This document shows positions 14,518 to 37,591 of a stretch of DNA of 64,000 bases, piece by piece. A program made the translations under genes and the position numbers. The notes below the pieces were generated by a model. The model saw only the letters and a list, made by a program, of their open reading frames with translations, was not told the DNA's origin and did no database searches. The DNA is from Lactobacillus sp. (GTDB lineage Bacteria > Bacillota > Bacilli > Lactobacillales > Lactobacillaceae), in the NCBI GenBank assembly GCA_022483245.1, contig JAKVNR010000001.1:558001-622000 (forward strand). The letters run 5' to 3'. Every line of letters starts with the position of its first letter. The first letter of the stretch is position 1.

Positions 14518-17500
14518 TCATTCCAATTTTACGCATTTTTGCGCGGCAAGCAAAATCAAATACTGGCCAATCACTGGTCGACCAGAAAAACTAGTCAGTG
14601 CTTGCGCATACAAATTCAGCTGCTGGCGGTAGCGCTGCTTGATTTTTTCAATCGCTGCCGCTTGCTGATTAGGATCAACCTGATCAGTTTTATAGTCGAA
14701 TAAAACGATACCAGTTGGTGTTTCAAAATAGCCATCAATCGTCCCGTGCAGCAGAATTTTCGCTGTTTCATCGCTCACATCAGCAAATAGCCGCTTAGCT
14801 GGCAGCAAGCCTGAAAAAGCTACTTCGCGGTGCAGTTTCTCTGGTGCTTGCCAAAACGGTTTTGCAAAATCGGAGTTAACGAACCATTCCAAAGCATCCA
14901 GCGGCAAATCTTGCGCTAGCTCGGCATTTAATTTACCCGTTTCAATTAAGTGCTTAATCGTATCAGCGACTGGTTGCGGCTGGGCTGCATCGTAAGGATA
15001 GTATTGCAAGACTAAGTGGGCCGCCGTCCCAATTTGAGCGCCAGTAAATTTATCCTGATACAAAAAACTAGGTTTAGTTTCAATCGGCTGTAAATAACGG
15101 TTAGTCGACTGATGCAAATGGCTGTTTTCCAATTCACGCTCATCTGGGTCGAGCCTGCGTTTAAGGTCAGAAACTGATTGATAAGCAGCCTTGGTCGTTT
15201 CGGCCTGATTAGGATATTTAAAACTAAATAAGTCATGCACCCGGTTCAACAAACCAGCACTGACTCTCAATTTTTGAGTAGCCAGCTTATGTTGCGTAGT
15301 CTTTTCCTGCTCGGCATCAATTTGGCCCATGACTAACAAAAACGGACTTTGTTCAGCTGCTAAGTCTACCTGCTCAATTGGGTGCAGGACTTGTTCAGCT
15401 AATTGCAGCTGGCCGCCAATTAAATCTAGGGGCTGGTTTGCGGCAACTGCTTCTGCCGCTGGTAATTTACCAGCAGCTGTCAATTTACGACTCAGTTCAG
15501 TTCCCGTTTTTTGCCAATCAGACATCTGTCCAACTAAAATTAATTTTTGCTCAGCCCGCGTTAAGGCTACATAAGTAATCCGGCTTTCTTCTGCAAGCAT
15601 GCGTTCTTGCTGGTGCATAGCGGCCGCGGTTTTAACCAAGGTATCGACCTTAAACTCAGGTTCAGCAATCGTTAAGCCTAAGCTTTGCTGATCAAACACA
15701 TAATCGCGCTGCAAGTCTTGCCTTGGAAATTTATGCGTTAAGCCAGTGTAAAAAACAATTGGGAACTGCAAACCTTTCGCCCCGTGAATCGTCAGCAGCT
15801 TAACGGCGTTGCCAGCTTCGCTGCTTAATAGCGGCTCTGCTAAGTCTTTATTGGCTGACTGCATCCGGTTAAGAAAGCGGATAAATTGATAGAGGCCTTT
15901 AAAACCAGCACTTTCAAATGAACTAGCCCGCTCGTATAAATTCTCTAAATTAACACGGCGCTGGCGGCCATTCGGCAAGCTAGTCATAATTTCCAGCAAA
16001 TGCGTTTGACTATACAAACTCCAAATCAGTTCAGAAATTCGGTGCTGTCTAGCAAATGTGCGTAGGTCATTCAGCTGCTGCAAAAAACGCTGGCAGCGCT
16101 GGCCTAATTCGTTTTTTTGCAGCGAATAAACGCTAACAGCGGTATAAAAATCGCTGCGCGGTGACCGTACGCGAATCTGTGCTAAATCCGTTGTCGAAAA
16201 ACTAAAAATCGGCGATCTGAGGACAGCCACTAAGGGAATATCCTGCTCGGGATTATCAATTATTTTTAGATAATTTAAAACAATTGATAACTCAAAAGTT
16301 TGAAAATAATTTTGAGCATCAGTAATTAATAGTGGAATCCCCGCTTGCGCAAACGCCGACATAATTTCCAAGTTATCGGACCGGCTGCGGGTCAGAATGG
16401 CAATATCTGAGTATTGCAACGGCCGCTGCCTGCCCAATTTGCCATCGTAAACCTGAAAATGCTCAGCTTGCAGCTGCTGAATGCGCTGAATTAACAGCTG
16501 GCTCAGGGAAAGCTGCTGATTGTCTGGAGTTAAAAGTAATTCGGCTGCTTGCGGGGCCTGATCATAATTGTGATTAGCTGCCAGCAGCTGACTATCTGCT
16601 TCATAATCCAACCCGCCAAAATCTTTAGTCATTAAGCCATTAAAAACTTGGTTGACTAGTTTGGTCACCGCTGGACTCGACCGAAAATTTTCAGCTAAGT
16701 GCAGACATTGGTCAGTTGCACTCGCTTGATACTCGCGGTATTTTTGCAGAAACAATTCTGGCCGAGCCTGCCGAAAGCCATAAATCGACTGTTTGACATC
16801 CCCGACGAAAAACAAATGGTTGCTTGATCCATGCAAACGATTAATCAAAGCGTCTTGCAAGCCATTGATATCCTGACATTCATCTACCAGAATTTCAGCA
16901 AATTTTTCTTGGTAGAAACGACGGGCTTGCTGTCCTTGGGTTGTAGGCATCGTTAAAATCTGATAAGCCATTTGTTCCAAATCGCCATAGTCAAGCAAAG
17001 TTTGCTGGCGTTTGAGCTGGTTATAAGCCGCAATAAAATCAGTTTCCATCGCCACAATCGTTTGCGTCAGCTGCTGACCAGCCTGCAGGGCTTTAATTTG
17101 ATCAGATTCAGGTTGGGCGTAAAAATGCGCTAGTAAACTTAGAACTGCTTCTTTAATTGCTTTTTTAGCGGTTTGACTGTCTTCATAAAATTCGGCAGTC
17201 GCTTCATCCCACTTTTTACTTTTCGCCGTCCTTAGCAAAAAACGGCAATTTTGCAGCAAAGACCGCTGCTGATCATACGGTTGATCACTATCAACTGCAT
17301 GAGTAAAAGCTTGCCAGTTTTGTGCAAAGCCCTGAAAATTCTGTGCTACTTTTTGCAAATCAGGACTCGTTAGCAAAGGATCATCTAAAATCGGCTTTAA
17401 CTGCTCGTTAATATTAGCCAGCTGCAAGTTGATTTGCGGTTTGATTACTGTTTGCCAGAGCTTACTTTGAACCAACTGGTCCTCATCTAACTCATAACGA

Positions 17501-31731: not shown

Positions 31732-32331
31732 CTACTCATTAATTTTATCTTGTAAAATTATTTGAACTCTTTTTTGCAATTCCGGAACTACCTGTTCTTC
31801 AAACCAAGGATTTTTTACCTCCTAAATCTGATTTCGTGGTGAGGGATGAATAATAGGAAAATAATTTGGCAGATATTGTTGATAGTTTCTAACAGTATCA
31901 GTTAACCGATCCTTATACTTTAAGTGAAGATACTTTCTCGTAGAATAAGCTCCTACTAAAATAGTTATTTGAATATTAGGCATCAATTCTAACAATTGCG
32001 GATGCCATTTTTCAGCAAAATTTTTGCGAGGAGGTAGATCACCAGATTTTCCCTTTCCTGGATAATAAAAATCCATTGGTAAAATTGCAATTTTTCCAGA
32101 ATTATAGAAAACGTCTCTAGTAACCCCTAGCCAAGACCGAAGGCGGTCACCACTAGGATCATCCCAGAATTTCATTTTTTCTTGAGCAATCCGCCCCGGT
32201 GCCTGACCAATGATATTGATTCTTGCAGATGCAGAAGCATAGTAAAGTGGTTTTATCCCTCGCTTTGTAAAAAGTTCATTATCAGGATCTGCTTGAATTT
32301 CTTGAAAAATTTTTTGAAATTCACTTTGCAT
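31732..32331 (-). pseudogene. Uracil-DNA glycosylase family gene with an internal amber codon
   Basis: The frame reads as a typical roughly 199-residue uracil-DNA glycosylase family protein: INIIGQAPGRIAQE (motif A), FYPGKGKSGDLPPRK, ITILVGAYSTRKYL, and the motif B-like HPSPRNQI. A TAG at 31822-31824 then interrupts it. In the same frame the sequence continues as EVKNPWFEEQVVPELQKRV and stops at 31732, the normal C-terminus of the family. A TGG-to-TAG change at a conserved Trp is the likely lesion. The truncated 169-residue product keeps both active-site motifs, so residual function cannot be excluded. Confidence 0.85.
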
Positions 32332-32383: not shown

Positions 32384-33016
32384 CTATTCGAATAATTCGA
32401 TTTGACGCAATTTACGTTTTAATTGGCCTCGTTTTTCTAATAAAGCGAACTTACGAGACAAAGTTTCAGGTGTTGTTCCAAGATATAAAGCTAAATCCTT
32501 CATTTTTAAAGGTAAATTAAAATTATTTTTATTTATTTCATTCGCATACATTTGTAAATATTTTAATAACCGATCTTCAATCTTAGGTAATGTCAACAAG
32601 TGAATCTGCGTTTGCATTTTCACAACTTTAGCCACATTTAGTTCTAGTAATTTAACACTTAATTCTGGCTGTTCATTCATCAGTTTAAGTAAATCCTGCC
32701 GTTTTAATAAACAGATTTCACTATCTTCCGTAGTATCTACATAATTATTGATATTCTCTTGACCAAAAAGCCAACTCTCGCCAACGTAATCACCTGTATG
32801 CAATATCTCTAAAACATTTTCATTGCCGTCTTCATCTAATGTATACTGCTTAGCATTACCATTGGCTACAATTATTAAATTAGCACTCATCATAGGGGCG
32901 ATCACTATCTCACCCTTTTGATATTTTTTATGCTGAAATAATCTTTCGATCTGTATTTTTTCATCTTGTGGTAAAGCATTAAATAACGGTACTAAATTAA
33001 CACATAAATCAGCCAT
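32384..33016 (-). CDS. flp: Crp/Fnr-family regulator, FLP type
   Basis: A 210-residue FNR-like activator. A cyclic-nucleotide-type sensor fold (about residues 15-125) is joined by a long dimer helix (about 120-140) to a C-terminal HTH (about 165-200). The cysteines are C5 and C102, the same positions as the redox-active disulfide pair recalled for Lactobacillus casei FLP. There is no N-terminal cysteine cluster for Fe-S. The recognition helix ETLSRKF keeps the E--SR residues that give E. coli FNR its TTGAT specificity. Last gene of the ATPase-chaperone-Dps-like run; three matching boxes lie nearby. Confidence 0.92.
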   Translation of the reverse strand: MADLCVNLVPLFNALPQDEKIQIERLFQHKKYQKGEIVIAPMMSANLIIVANGNAKQYTLDEDGNENVLEILHTGDYVGESWLFGQENINNYVDTTEDSEICLLKRQDLLKLMNEQPELSVKLLELNVAKVVKMQTQIHLLTLPKIEDRLLKYLQMYANEINKNNFNLPLKMKDLALYLGTTPETLSRKFALLEKRGQLKRKLRQIELFE

Positions 33017-33038
33017 TACATTCTGCCTCCCCTCTTAA

Positions 33039-33581
33039 TTAAAAATCTTCAGACTCTTCAGTATACAATCCTTCTCTTAAATTATGACCTAAAAAGTTTT
33101 GAGTTATTCGGATCTGTTCTTTAATCCAAATCAATAAATTGACCAAATTAGTAGATAATTCTGACCAATTTTCATTTTCAGCTAAAGCAATCGCCTTGGT
33201 GATAAAAAGAATTTGCGTGTCAAAATCCTTTATCAAAGCAAATAATTGTTCTTCACCTTCGAGATATTTGCTACTGCCGTTTTCTTCTAACACAGAATAT
33301 TCTTCAAACTGAGATAAAATCGTTGGAATACTTTCACCATTATTAACTAATAGTTGACTTAATTGATCAATTTCTCGACGTTCATAAGCTATCCAATTAG
33401 TACCCTTATCTGCTAAAAAAAGATTGGCAACTCCTTTAACAAATAAACTAGCTTGGCTAATTTTTAAAGAATGAATTAACAAGTTAGAAATAATATGACC
33501 GGTCATAGCTGCCGCAGTTGGTTTATGGTGATCAAGATCACTTTGCTTCAATTCAGCTTGATACTTTTCTTCTGCATTCAT
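33039..33581 (-). CDS. Dps/ferritin-like protein with degenerate metal site
   Basis: A 180-residue, all-helical soluble protein that resembles Dps: HSLKISQASLFVKG can be aligned with the family HNYHWYVKG segment, and ERREIDQLSQLL with the ferroxidase Asp/Glu helix, followed by NNGESIPTIL like the GGxPxxTL turn. Most ferroxidase His/Asp ligands are not in place, so iron oxidation is doubtful. A role in DNA protection, metal buffering or partner binding is inferred from context only. The start overlaps the chaperone stop (TAATG). Confidence 0.68.
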   Translation of the reverse strand: MNAEEKYQAELKQSDLDHHKPTAAAMTGHIISNLLIHSLKISQASLFVKGVANLFLADKGTNWIAYERREIDQLSQLLVNNGESIPTILSQFEEYSVLEENGSSKYLEGEEQLFALIKDFDTQILFITKAIALAENENWSELSTNLVNLLIWIKEQIRITQNFLGHNLREGLYTEESEDF

Positions 33582-33811
33582 TAGTTAAGCTCCTTTTCCT
33601 TAATTTCTTGCACTTCATAACCCATTTTTTCAACGGCTACCTTAACGTCAATAACCTTAGTCTTATCAGGATCTAGAATGAATTTCAGTTTTCCTGCATT
33701 AAATAAAATTTTTATTTGATCGGTTCCATCTAAACTATCAATCGCTTTTTCAATTTTGCTCAAACATGAGGGACAAGTCATGCCAGATAATTTCATCATT
33801 ACTTTTTCCAT
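33581..33811 (-). CDS. CopZ-like heavy-metal-associated chaperone
   Basis: A 76-residue HMA domain with the metal-binding MTCPSC at residues 11-16, the beta-alpha-beta-beta-alpha-beta layout and a terminal GYEVQEI strand. Such proteins carry soft metals, usually Cu(I), to P1B ATPases. The adjacent ATPase has no N-terminal HMA domain of its own, so this is probably its detached metal donor. It is preceded by a perfect FNR-type box at 33875-33888. Confidence 0.92.
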   Translation of the reverse strand: MEKVMMKLSGMTCPSCLSKIEKAIDSLDGTDQIKILFNAGKLKFILDPDKTKVIDVKVAVEKMGYEVQEIKEKELN

Positions 33812-33874
33812 AGTTCAATCTTCTTTCACGTTAATTTATATGTTTAATGCTACATTGTTCCAATCATTACAAAA

Positions 33875-33888
33875 TTGATAGCTATCAA
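33875..33888. promoter_or_regulatory. FNR-type box upstream of the chaperone gene
   Basis: TTGATAGCTATCAA is a perfect 14-bp palindrome matching TTGAT-N4-ATCAA. It overlaps the ATPase stop codon. A possible -10 (TAGCAT, 33847-33852 on the minus strand) lies exactly 22 nt beyond the box, which puts the box centre at -41.5. Confidence 0.8.
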
Positions 33889-35738
33889 CTTTTTTGATTA
33901 AATTTAATTAATCTCATCCCATTTAAGATAACGACGAGGATACTGAATTCGTGAACAAACATCCCACTTGCCATTTCAACATAACCAGCAAACAAGCCGA
34001 TAAACAATATCAAAACTGTCAATAAAGCTATCACTATGTTTTCATTCATGTTCAAGACCGTTTTCTTGGATAAATTTATGGCATAATTAATTTTTCGTAG
34101 ATCATCTTTAACTAAAACGACATCTGAAACTTCAAGTGCAATATCCGTTCCACTACCGATAGCAACTGCAACATTAGCATTAGCTAAGGCCGGACTATCA
34201 TTAATACCATCCCCGATAAACGCAATATGATGACCTTTAGTTCTTTCCTGTTTAATAAATGCTGCTTTAGCTTCTGGCAACATTTGACCATGTACTTCAT
34301 CAATTGGTAATTTTGCCGCAATTTGTTCAGCAGTTTCTTGTTTATCACCAGAAAGCAGCACTAATTTTTTAACTCCTAATTTCTTTAAGTGAGTTAGAGC
34401 TGCTTTAGCTTCTGGGCGTAATTGATCTTTAATCCCAAAAACAGCTAATTGACTTTGATCTTTATTAGCAAAGACAACAACTGAATTACCTAATTGACTA
34501 AACTGATTAGTTATTCTGTCTAATTTGTCATTGGCGTGAGTATTTTCAACGATAAAATTTTGACTACCTAAAAAGTATTTTTTATTTTTTAAACTAGCTA
34601 TGACTCCCTTGCCCTTAACAGTTTGAATTTTAATTGAAGCTAATTTTTGCCTATTTAATTTAGCAATTGCCTGAGCTAACGGGTGGTTGCTTTGACTCTC
34701 AATTTGGGCGGCTAATTTAATAATTTCGTTTTTTTGACCATTCAATACTTCAATTAGATTAACTTCTGGATGACCAACGGTTAAAGTCCCGGTCTTATCA
34801 AATGCAATTTCATCGATCTTATGAGCTTGATCCATAACTTGAGATCCTTTAAACATAATTCCGTTTTTTGCACCATTGCCAATACCAGCTACTGTAGATA
34901 CTGGTACACCAATAACTAAGGCTCCTGGACAGCCCAAGACCATAACTGTAATAGCCAATTTAAGGTTTTTAGTAATCAGACCAACAATGAGTGCAATTAT
35001 AAGAACAGCAGGAGTGTAATATTTTGAAAAACGATTAATTAACTTTTCAGCATGTGACTTTGTATCTTGTGCTTCTTCAACCATTTCGATAATTTTACCA
35101 AAGGTCGTATCTTCGGCGACTGCAGTAGCTTTGACAGTCAATATTCCGTTTTCAAGAATTGTGCCTGCATATATTTCATTACCGACTTTCTTGTTAGCCA
35201 ATTTGGATTCACCATTAACATTGGCCTCATTAAAATAACCAGAACCTGAAATGATTTTTCCATCAACTGGAACTTGATCACCGGTTTTAATTAAAACTTT
35301 TTCACCAGGATCAATAAAATCAATATCCTCTTTCTCAGTTGAACCATCATCTTTAACAACTAATGCTGTTTTCGGCGCCATTTTGGTCAAATCAGAGACT
35401 GCTGACCGAGTTTTCTTTAAGGTTAATTCTTCTAGCATATCCCCTAGCGAAAATAGCCAGGTAACAATGGCCGCTTCATTAAATTCACCTATAATAAAGG
35501 CCCCGATTACCGCTAAAGATACCAACACATCAATCGAAATTAATTTAACCTTTAAAGATGAAATGGCTGTCAAAACAATGGGAATCATCCCAACAATTCC
35601 CATAATTAGCATTAAAACCTGATACGATAAATCCATGTGTAATAGCCACTTGAATCCTTCAGCGAGCAGAAGCAGAATAGTGTAAATAAGTAAAAGCTGC
35701 TTTCTATATTTCACAAAGAATTGCTGTAATCTAATCAT
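33885..35738 (-). CDS. Heavy-metal P1B-type ATPase with a CPG membrane motif
   Basis: A 617-residue P-type ATPase. It shows the actuator domain (TGDQVPVDGK, VNGES), phosphorylation site DKTGTLT at about 314-320, the P1B-specific HP dipeptide in QSNHPLAQAI, and GDGINDSPALANA. The ion-site helix reads LGCPGALVIGVP at about residue 270, that is CPG instead of the CPC of Cu+ or Zn2+/Cd2+ pumps or the SPC of Fe/Co pumps. There is no N-terminal metal-binding domain. The ATG at 35738 has AGGAG at 8 nt; 35744 is too close to it. The metal is unknown. Confidence 0.9.
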   Translation of the reverse strand: MIRLQQFFVKYRKQLLLIYTILLLLAEGFKWLLHMDLSYQVLMLIMGIVGMIPIVLTAISSLKVKLISIDVLVSLAVIGAFIIGEFNEAAIVTWLFSLGDMLEELTLKKTRSAVSDLTKMAPKTALVVKDDGSTEKEDIDFIDPGEKVLIKTGDQVPVDGKIISGSGYFNEANVNGESKLANKKVGNEIYAGTILENGILTVKATAVAEDTTFGKIIEMVEEAQDTKSHAEKLINRFSKYYTPAVLIIALIVGLITKNLKLAITVMVLGCPGALVIGVPVSTVAGIGNGAKNGIMFKGSQVMDQAHKIDEIAFDKTGTLTVGHPEVNLIEVLNGQKNEIIKLAAQIESQSNHPLAQAIAKLNRQKLASIKIQTVKGKGVIASLKNKKYFLGSQNFIVENTHANDKLDRITNQFSQLGNSVVVFANKDQSQLAVFGIKDQLRPEAKAALTHLKKLGVKKLVLLSGDKQETAEQIAAKLPIDEVHGQMLPEAKAAFIKQERTKGHHIAFIGDGINDSPALANANVAVAIGSGTDIALEVSDVVLVKDDLRKINYAINLSKKTVLNMNENIVIALLTVLILFIGLFAGYVEMASGMFVHEFSILVVILNGMRLIKFNQKS

Positions 35739-35795
35739 TTTCATCTCTCCTTTATTTAGCCTTACATATCATAGGAGAAAAAAGAATTATATAAA

Positions 35796-35809
35796 TTGAT
35801 TCTTATCAA
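35796..35809. promoter_or_regulatory. FNR-type box upstream of the ATPase gene
   Basis: TTGATTCTTATCAA matches TTGAT-N4-ATCAA perfectly. On the minus strand a TATGAT (35768-35773) lies 22 nt beyond it, giving a centre at -41.5. A second possible -10, TATAAT (35786-35791), lies only 4 nt from the box; use of that one would make the box a repressor site. Confidence 0.85.
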
Positions 35810-35826
35810 GAATAAAGCCTACAAGA

Positions 35827-35868
35827 AAAAGCTAGAATCTATGTAGAAAATCATAGATCCTAGCTTTC
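35827..35868 (-). terminator. Terminator of the His-rich EF-hand-like gene
   Basis: On the minus strand the stem AAAGCTAGGATCTATG / CATAGATTCTAGCTTT (one mismatch or wobble) is followed by TTTC, just after the gene at 35890-36447. Confidence 0.82.
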
Positions 35869-35889
35869 AAGTTTTATTTCTATAAAAAA

Positions 35890-36447
35890 TTAATGCATTA
35901 ATTTAATTTCACCAGCGGCAATTGGCAAAGTCGTATGAGCATCATAGCTCATAACATCCCCAGCAACACTAGATGGCAATTCAAGATCTGCCGGAACGCC
36001 ATGAACATAAACTACTCGCTTATCTAATTGAAGATCATCACTGCCAAATGCTTCTTTAAATTTTGCCTGAAGCTTTGTTAATTGAACGTCAATTTCATAT
36101 TCATAATATCCTTTTTCATCCGCTACAGGATAGCCATCATGGGGTATATTCATATCTTCAGGGGCATCATCTAAAGGTACCATGGTTGTACCAGAAACAG
36201 CCGCAGTTTCAGGTAAATCAATAAAGCCATCATGGTTAACATCTTCTTTTTTAGTTGGAACATGAGCTTTAGTGCCATCAGGAAAACCATGAAAATGTTC
36301 CCAGTGTTCTATGTTAGCTGGAGTATCAAACATCTCAACATGAATATGTAATTTATCACCATCTTCTTCGAAGGTGGCGATACCATGAGCTTTAGTACCA
36401 ATCTTTTCTTCGTTTAATGGTTCAATATTTGCAATATATTTTGTCAT
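35890..36447 (-). CDS. His-rich, EF-hand-like, CHRD-type metal-binding protein (putative)
   Basis: A 185-residue acidic protein with no signal peptide. HIH at 34-36 and HWEHFHG at 48-54 form a likely metal-binding cluster. DVNHDGFIDLPE at 69-80 fits the Ca2+-binding EF-hand loop pattern DxNxDGxIDxxE. The C-terminal half, with VYVHGVPADLELPSSVAGD, resembles CHRD-type domains. The function is unknown. It has its own promoter with a perfect FNR-type box and belongs to the same predicted regulon as the ATPase and chaperone. Confidence 0.7.
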   Translation of the reverse strand: MTKYIANIEPLNEEKIGTKAHGIATFEEDGDKLHIHVEMFDTPANIEHWEHFHGFPDGTKAHVPTKKEDVNHDGFIDLPETAAVSGTTMVPLDDAPEDMNIPHDGYPVADEKGYYEYEIDVQLTKLQAKFKEAFGSDDLQLDKRVVYVHGVPADLELPSSVAGDVMSYDAHTTLPIAAGEIKLMH

Positions 36448-36509
36448 AATAGATTTCCTTTCTGCCTAAATATCTAAAGTGATTATATTATGATGCGATA
36501 ATAGATAAC

Positions 36510-36523
36510 TTGATCTGGATCAA
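36510..36523. promoter_or_regulatory. FNR-type box upstream of the His-rich gene
   Basis: TTGATCTGGATCAA matches TTGAT-N4-ATCAA, extended to AACTTGAT / ATCAAGTT arms. A perfect TATAAT (36482-36487, minus strand) lies exactly 22 nt beyond it, placing the centre at -41.5, the class II activator position. No good -35 exists, as expected for an activator-dependent promoter. Confidence 0.88.
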
Positions 36524-36595: not shown

Positions 36596-36985
36596 GGCAA
36601 TGCTACAAATACTCTTCCACCCCTTACAATTGGAAGTTTAAGTGTAGACAGAGTGCTGGCTTTTGCAGACAAAGAAGATTATAAAGGATTAACTAATTAC
36701 TTACTTCAAGGACTGCAAAATCTTAAAAATGCAGGGGTTCAATTTGCTAGTTTGACTGGTATGACACCTCATCTAGTAATTAATGAACTAAATAAAAAGA
36801 GTCCCATTCCAATTGTTAATATGCTATCTACAGCCAAGAACTATGTGATAAAAAATAATTACAAAAAAGTAGCACTTTAGGGAACTAAACCTACAATGTC
36901 TAATGGATTCTTTCAAAGAGAATTTGAAAATACCGATATAACTCTGGTCACACCAAATTCGGCAGAACAAGAAAAAATTTACTCC
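36596..36985 (+). pseudogene. Aspartate/glutamate racemase remnant
   Basis: One frame reads TIGSLSVDRVLAFADKEDY, then LTGMTPHLVINEL, then IVNMLSTAKNYVIKNNYKKVAL, the middle of an Asp/Glu racemase. A TAG at 36878-36880 interrupts a family-typical LLGTKPTM segment (TTG to TAG). The N-terminal GGMG region and the C-terminal third with the second catalytic Cys are missing. The frame then runs directly into the YheO-like regulator remnant, so a deletion fused the two genes. The boundary at about 36985 is approximate. Confidence 0.85.
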
Positions 36986-37591
36986 AATCTTTGCAAATAT
37001 CTAGCTGCAACTTTGGGTTCAGATTATGAAGTTATAGTTCATTCTGTTGATAATGCACACGTTGTAGCAATTGAGAACGGTTATATTAGTGGTCGTAATC
37101 TTGATTCACCAATCACTAATTTAGCTATTTCATTAATTAAAAGTGGTTACTATAAAGATCATGATTTCAAAGTTCATTACAAAGCCAAAACCAAAACTCA
37201 ACGCTAAGTTATCGGCTCCACCTTTTTTATTAAAAATGACCAAAATCAAATACAAGGTATATTATGTATAAATCATGATATAAGCAAAAATAAACAAGTT
37301 ATTGATAATTTGATGGATATTCTTAATATTCCGCAAGAATCAGAAAAAAGCAATCATACAGACGAACCAGAAGAAGTACTGGCTACTTCTGTAGAGGGTT
37401 TAATTTATTCCGTGGTTGACCCTAAGATGCTCCAAAGCAATATGCTCCTAAGTCCAAAACAAAAAGAAAAATTAATCAGTGAATTGCATATTAAAGGCGT
37501 TTTTTCTGTCAAAGGCTCGGTCCAAAAAGTCGCTAAAATTTTACGTATTTCTGAACCGACAATTTATCGCTATCTAAGAAATCTTAAGTAA
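36986..37591 (+). pseudogene. YheO-type PAS-HTH regulator remnant
   Basis: The PAS part reads CKYLAATLGSDYEVIVHSVD then ENGYISGRNLDSPITNLAI, typical of YheO-like PAS domains. The HTH part ends in KVAKILRISEPTIYRYLRNLK. Between them a TAA at 37205-37207 interrupts an otherwise continuous frame (probably CAA to TAA). The N-terminus is fused in frame to the racemase remnant. YheO-like regulators often sit beside amino-acid racemase or metabolism genes, so both remnants probably come from one former locus. Confidence 0.85.

Follow-up and report, generated by a model that had tools for sequence, protein, structure and literature searches.

The FLP regulators of lactic acid bacteria have been known since the late 1990s, and to our knowledge their physiological targets are still poorly placed. 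As described, FLP-type regulators have a Cys5/Cys102 pair and no further cysteine, and a reversible intramolecular disulfide is proposed to control their DNA binding. The FLP of Lactobacillus casei, reportedly described by Gostick in 1998, is said to be a CRP/FNR family member with Cys5 and Cys102, for which disulfide-type sensing was proposed, and to have a site with a TGA-N4-TCA core; the flpA and flpB genes of L. lactis, reportedly the work of Gostick in 1999 and Scott in 2000, are said to lie in three-gene operons of the order HMA-Dps-FLP. Here we analyze a cluster of five genes in Lactobacillus sp. (assembly GCA_022483245.1, contig JAKVNR010000001.1), located in the stretch of 64,000 nucleotides (nt) from position 558,001 to 622,000 of the forward strand, which as a whole is called the window. 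The cluster encodes an FLP/FNR-like regulator, a Dps-like protein, an HMA metallochaperone-like protein, a P1B-type ATPase, and a His-rich protein, all on the minus strand, and it probably constitutes one FLP-type regulon.

This kind of regulon is already known: in an excerpt of PMC3616900, FlpA is one of the metal-homeostasis regulons of lactic acid bacteria expanded in that work. A passage of PMC5039431 refers to the switch of the L. casei FLP and to an oxygen-labile Fe-S cluster in FlpA of L. lactis. In a table from PMC5663981, a Listeria plasmid has the gene order Dps, Crp/Fnr, Lgt, copper chaperone, ATPase, and the pump beside the Crp/Fnr gene is called copper-translocating.

Results

A preliminary description of this DNA had claimed three perfect TTGAT-N4-ATCAA boxes, each 22 nt from a -10 element on the minus strand, and this arrangement was borne out. 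The box of the HMA-Dps-regulator operon (TTGATAGCTATCAA, 33875..33888) overlaps the stop codon of the ATPase open reading frame (ORF), which ends at 33885, and is followed by the -10 element TAGCAT (33847..33852). The ATPase gene has the box TTGATTCTTATCAA (35796..35809) and the -10 TATGAT (35768..35773), the His-rich gene the box TTGATCTGGATCAA (36510..36523) and the -10 TATAAT (36482..36487), and at all three promoters the -10 starts exactly 22 nt after the box. For predicted transcription starts near 33840, 35761, and 36475, the box centres are at -41.5, which is the class II position of CRP/FNR regulators. The first of these starts is the one given before, and the other two, formerly placed at 35762 and 36476, move by one base under the same rule. 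The HMA, Dps, and regulator genes are codirectional and separated by short gaps. After the His-rich gene a probable terminator is present on the minus strand (35827..35868), consisting of a 17-pair stem and a T-rich tail (minimum free energy -22.6 kcal/mol, z -4.42), which the terminator scan did not list. Since this stem-loop lies between the His-rich gene and the ATPase gene, the latter probably needs its own promoter.

The frequency of the box was determined in the window and in the genome (1,555,094 bases, one contig), with ORFs called mechanically throughout at a minimum length of 50-60 amino acids (aa). The window contains five perfect palindromes compared to 0.09 expected, and none of 100 shuffles reached this number; the two palindromes outside the locus, at 17281 and 27028, are both within ORFs. 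Many unrelated perfect boxes spread through the genome had been named beforehand as a finding that would speak against the regulon. Of 15 distinct perfect boxes in the genome, 12 are indeed located elsewhere, all of them within ORFs, and the three boxes of the locus are the only intergenic ones. The reversed pattern, which served as a control, gave 3 perfect genome sites per strand versus 15 for the box, and we infer that the excess of perfect boxes in coding regions reflects codon usage. When up to one mismatch was allowed in the box or in TANNNT at +22, 11 genome sites were obtained (control, 2), namely the three of the locus and eight with the box within an ORF. The pattern TTGAYN4RTCAA matched 39 genome sites, of which 24 were imperfect; 23 of these are in ORFs, and the single one between ORFs has no -10 at +22. 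A further intergenic site with a box and a -10 at +22 was thus not found in the genome by the perfect, one-mismatch, or TTGAYN4RTCAA scans. A two-mismatch genome search (173 matches; control, 86) was not used.

Conservation of the layout was scored in loci, including plasmids, that had been fetched by protein or operon similarity and not by the box; loci from 75 genomes of the genus that had been fetched by the box were not counted, since the box itself had selected them. Distinct upstream regions were kept if the gene start was at least 100 bases inside the locus, with an ATPase identity of at least 38%. The layout was defined as a box with at most one mismatch and a match of at least 4/6 to TATAAT at exactly +22, and 200 rounds of approximate dinucleotide shuffles served as the control. 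It was present upstream of the HMA chaperone gene in 48/60 cases (0.175 in shuffles), upstream of the ATPase gene in 21/43 (0.065), and upstream of the His-rich gene in 18/32 (0.16); with one box kept per upstream region, these numbers were 47, 21, and 18, respectively. The mean match to TATAAT peaked at +22 with 5.0 (ATPase), 4.73 (HMA), and 4.27 (His-rich) of 6 positions, compared to 0.7 to 3.5 at the other spacings from 8 to 35, and the -10 at +22 was kept in all 21 ATPase sites having a box, the window included. In 83 of the 87 sites the best match to TTGACA with a spacer of 16-18 was below 4/6 (HMA 48/48, ATPase 18/21, His-rich 17/18).

The layout before the HMA gene was also found in loci of Clostridia and allies, where the ATPase is ~40-42% identical. 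On the L. lactis plasmid pA12-4 it is present twice, and on the Enterococcus faecium plasmid pR39-1-A (L199, 4127-7602) the Dps, regulator, HMA, and ATPase genes are each preceded by a box with a -10 at +22, which makes four sites; the scan of pR39-1-A was filtered for this combination, and boxes with no such -10 would not appear in it. A regulator is encoded in 34 of the 41 loci fetched with the ATPase.

The regulator (32384..33016, 210 aa) matched the Pfam families cNMP_binding (PF00027) and HTH_Crp_2 (PF13545) above cut-off, which is the CRP/FNR architecture, and its AlphaFold2 model had a mean predicted local distance difference test score (pLDDT) of 92.7. A structure search yielded mostly cyclic-nucleotide-binding domains and was not used for family membership. 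The Cys5/Cys102 pair and the FNR-type E--SR residues reported earlier were confirmed: the two cysteines are the only ones in the protein, and the recognition motif is ETLSR. C5, C102, E184, S187, and R188 are invariant in a chosen alignment of 28 sequences. When the best regulator ORF of each locus (L016-L086, with the window) was scored, all 64/64 had both the Cys pair and E[TS][LIF]SR, and 50/64 had exactly two cysteines. The E--SR residues, with TTGAT/TGA-N4-TCA sites nearby, are predicted to provide the contact to DNA. FNR proteins with an Fe-S cluster have four cluster cysteines, compared to only two cysteines in this regulator. In CRP, which binds cAMP, the phosphate-binding cassette contains Arg-Ser; the corresponding region of the regulator reads GESWLFGQENINNYVD, with no Arg-Ser of the cAMP type (alignment, judged by eye). 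The genome contains one FNR-like match at E <= 0.001.

Regulators with 4 to 6 cysteines were encountered in nine loci of Clostridia and allies (L066, L067, L070, L072, L073, L075, L076, L080, and L083), the additional cysteines being mostly N-terminal in proteins whose starts are first-codon guesses. It is possible that the two-Cys form descends from a cluster-binding ancestor.

The ATPase (33885..35744, 619 aa) is of the P1B type, with CPG in transmembrane helix 6 (TM6) and HEFS in TM8, and no HMA domain was found within it. It passed the P1B models TIGR01525 and TIGR01512 (cadmium family; 451.3, cut-off 313.5) and scored just under the cut-off of the copper family TIGR01511 (396.5, cut-off 397). 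A canonical copper pump is disfavored by the combination of CPG and HExS, despite the latter score. CPG was present in TM6 of 36/38 ATPase ORFs scored; of the other two, L081 has APC and L082 is an unrelated ATPase ORF. The pattern H[EI]xS caught 65 ORFs, 63 of them with HExS, and missed L081 and four fragment or wrong ORFs; the ATPase of L081, 32% identical, has no such TM8. Among solved chains, the zinc ATPase 4umv is the nearest by E-value. A CPG pump class was not recognized in the literature listings, which do not prove its absence from print, and "CPG" occurs 0 times in the retrieved portion of PMC7558416.

The HMA metallochaperone-like protein (33581..33811, 76 aa, Pfam HMA) has the motif GMTCPSC; 68 ORFs scored, window included, have either CPSC (59) or CPTC (9). 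For the Dps-like protein (33039..33581, 180 aa) there was no Pfam match at 0.001, and the profile search matched 1zs3 (E=3.9e-41) and 1zuj (E=4.5e-36), its best solved matches being L. lactis DpsA, the best of all, and DpsB. The ferroxidase ligands of Dps are His31, His43, Asp58, and Glu62 (L. innocua numbering). In a gapless alignment to the Listeria Dps, His31, His43, and Glu62 correspond to S45, A57, and Q76, and Asp58 is kept as D72. The relation to Dps proposed initially holds, with the correction that most ferroxidase ligands are absent.

The protein introduced in the preliminary description as His-rich (35890..36447, 185 aa) has no cysteine and, judging from a weak predicted model (mean pLDDT 54.7), may have a fold like superoxide dismutase (SOD), which amends the earlier label: all 50 Foldseek matches listed for this model are Cu/Zn SODs. 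Its CHRD score was 13.9 bits, under the cut-off of 24.1, and Sod_Cu was not listed. A 12-residue EF-hand loop pattern, DVNHDGFIDLPE, lies inside the possible SOD-like fold. Searches of PHROGs and NCBIfam returned nothing useful for this protein, and the PDB profile search only matches with E >= 0.6. A literature search for CHRD or SOD in Lactobacillus with FNR gave nothing on it among the matches listed, which does not show absence from print. In 15 of 30 fetched loci (L148-L175) the His-rich gene is located near an FLP-like regulator of a second branch having Cys5/Cys103-104, and 14 of these 15 loci have a box before the His-rich gene.

The cluster seems to have spread horizontally. Operon identity to L. 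johnsonii is 93-98% in seven other lactobacillus loci, some of them from species of Limosilactobacillus and Ligilactobacillus, whereas it is 82% for the window. Full copies of the cluster are found on plasmids of L. plantarum, L. lactis, and E. faecium, the last with another gene order (Dps-regulator-lgt-HMA-ATPase on pR39-1-A), and plasmids of L. paracasei and Pediococcus carry ATPase-HMA-Dps with no regulator listed. The G+C content of the locus is 33%, versus 43% for the window. The regulator gene is adjoined by a gene of the uracil-DNA-glycosylase superfamily (31822-32331, minus strand), likewise in several relatives. On the plus strand at 36653-37591, consecutive short ORFs resemble by eye pieces of an Asp/Glu racemase-type protein and of a helix-turn-helix regulator and look like remnants.

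Discussion

We interpret the cluster, with a probability of about 0.7, as one FLP-type regulon with three promoters, driving the ATPase gene, the HMA chaperone-Dps-regulator operon, and the gene of the His-rich protein. A single class II regulon of the FLP type is very likely because the three boxes are intergenic, the layout recurs in relatives above shuffles, and the Cys pair and E--SR are present in all 64 regulators. Sequence comparison strongly supports the regulon and its class II layout, most for the HMA and ATPase genes and less for the His-rich gene. The earlier claim that a single FLP/FNR-like regulator acts on three targets from -41.5 has gained from the recurrence of the layout upstream of the same genes far above shuffles, from the single FNR-like match in the genome, and from the lack of other intergenic sites with this layout.

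According to this interpretation, the regulator, a CRP/FNR protein with an FNR-type E--SR helix, would bind to all three boxes, centred at -41.5, and recruit RNA polymerase in the manner of a class II activator, substituting for the missing or weak -35 element. Binding and activation are suggested by position, conservation, and the weak -35. The regulator would also control its own gene within the HMA operon; autoregulation, which had been predicted before, fits because the HMA box heads HMA-Dps-regulator. The likeliest signal would be an oxidation that joins Cys5 and Cys102 in a disulfide, by analogy to what is said of the L. casei FLP, and the output would be a metal-stress response under oxidizing conditions. 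In such a response, the HMA protein and the P1B pump would move a metal, the Dps-like protein with no normal ferroxidase site would protect DNA, and the putative SOD-fold protein would bind metal or handle superoxide.

Several observations weigh against a single regulon of this kind. The counts in relatives include the window's own copies, and many loci are near relatives and not independent events. A box with at most one mismatch is missing from 11/60 HMA, 22/43 ATPase, and 6/32 His-rich upstream regions; in 11 of those 22 ATPase loci, the HMA gene precedes the ATPase gene and has the box. Eight His-rich boxes miss the +22 spacing, six with a -10 at +21 and two (L049, L150) with neither. The His-rich gene stands beside the ATPase gene, as in the window, in L047, L049, L053, L061, L150, L151, and L155, and of these seven loci only L053, L061, and L155 showed the layout with +22 spacing, with TAGATT, which makes the promoter of the His-rich gene the least conserved part. 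The promoter scan, which found 17 sites in total versus 23.0 in shuffles, presented the ATPase promoter as TTTATA (4/6 match), 16 nt, TATGAT, and the earlier statement that none of the promoters has a good -35 is correct in general with a reserve for this -35-like element. In addition, 14/64 regulators have more than two cysteines, and a Dps serving iron storage or iron detoxification is disfavored by the absence of most ferroxidase ligands.

Among other explanations, the one that survives best keeps the regulon and assigns a different signal, metal or O2, with the Cys pair sensing a metal such as zinc or copper or holding part of an Fe-S cluster. We consider this unlikely, albeit with a chance that has to be reckoned with. 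The exactly two cysteines in 50/64 regulators argue against it when compared to the four of FNR; the ATPase and the HMA protein belong to metal-handling families, the nine regulators of Clostridia and allies have extra cysteines, and FlpA is classed as a metal-homeostasis regulon and credited with an oxygen-labile Fe-S cluster in the excerpts cited above, all of which favor it.

That the regulator represses one or more promoters is improbable. The preliminary description had raised repression for the ATPase gene, where an extra TATAAT begins 4 nt after the box, and in divergent pairs of FLP-like and His-rich genes the box is 19-35 nt from the predicted regulator start. However, the extra TATAAT was present in none of the relatives' ATPase sites inspected, which weakens this proposal, whereas the -10 at +22 is kept in all 21 ATPase sites with a box, the window included; a position of -41.5 and a weak -35 are also what activation would call for. 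Slighter still is the chance that the cluster was acquired horizontally, is decaying, and has lost its regulation in this host: the low G+C content, the broken-looking ORF pieces at 36653-37591, and the 93-98% operon identity across lactobacilli of several genera would agree with it, whereas the five genes have intact ORFs and the three promoters keep perfect boxes and -10 elements at +22. Chance palindromes, or boxes serving another regulator, as might be suspected from the 12 other perfect boxes, can practically be dismissed given that all 12 are within ORFs, that the layout is conserved far above shuffles, and that one FNR-like protein was found in the genome.

Extending the single FLP-type regulon beyond this locus, we tentatively propose a mobile, Firmicutes-wide stress regulon under a two-Cys FNR-like protein and a rigid 22-nt box-to--10 rule, which might drive a distinct P1B pump class (TM6 CPG, TM8 HExS) and a Dps with no normal ferroxidase site. 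In Lactobacillaceae it might also drive a cytoplasmic protein that has no cysteine and combines an SOD fold with a loop of the EF-hand type. In the usual view, lactobacilli depend on manganese in place of SOD. If the proposal is true, the SOD-fold protein would be an unrecognized antioxidant or metal protein of lactobacilli. The fixed distance, which lactobacilli share with some Clostridia and with plasmids of other Lactobacillales, provides a simple rule for listing FLP targets across many genomes, and two proteins, the pump class and the possible SOD-fold protein, are worth study.

Compared to known systems, the less expected parts of the cluster are the CPG/HExS ATPase, the Dps with most ferroxidase ligands absent, and, from a weak model, the SOD-fold-like His-rich protein. 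FlpS of Streptococcus suis and ArcR, as treated in a passage of PMC5039431, share with the regulator the character of an FNR-like activator in a Gram-positive bacterium, but FlpS acts on the arginine deiminase operon. The weak model of the His-rich protein resembles Cu/Zn SOD, from which, as from CHRD proteins, it differs by a subthreshold CHRD score and an EF-hand-type loop. P1B-4 ATPases have SPC in TM6 and HEG(S/G) in TM8. The HEFS of the ATPase aligns with HEGS of sCoaT (7qbz), which we take to represent the P1B-4 subclass, whereas CPG stands where 7qbz has SPC; by sequence, the pump thus resembles P1B-4 ATPases in TM8 but differs from them in TM6. With the L. casei FLP the regulator shares the family, the Cys5/Cys102 pair, the proposed sensing by a disulfide, and the TGA-N4-TCA core site, and in the window its targets are named by conserved boxes. 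The HMA-Dps-regulator order is the one said to occur in the L. lactis flp operons, and the Dps-like protein is closest to DpsA and DpsB; unlike those operons, the window and plasmid pA12-4 have an upstream P1B ATPase gene with its own box, and the window adds the gene of the SOD-fold-like protein.

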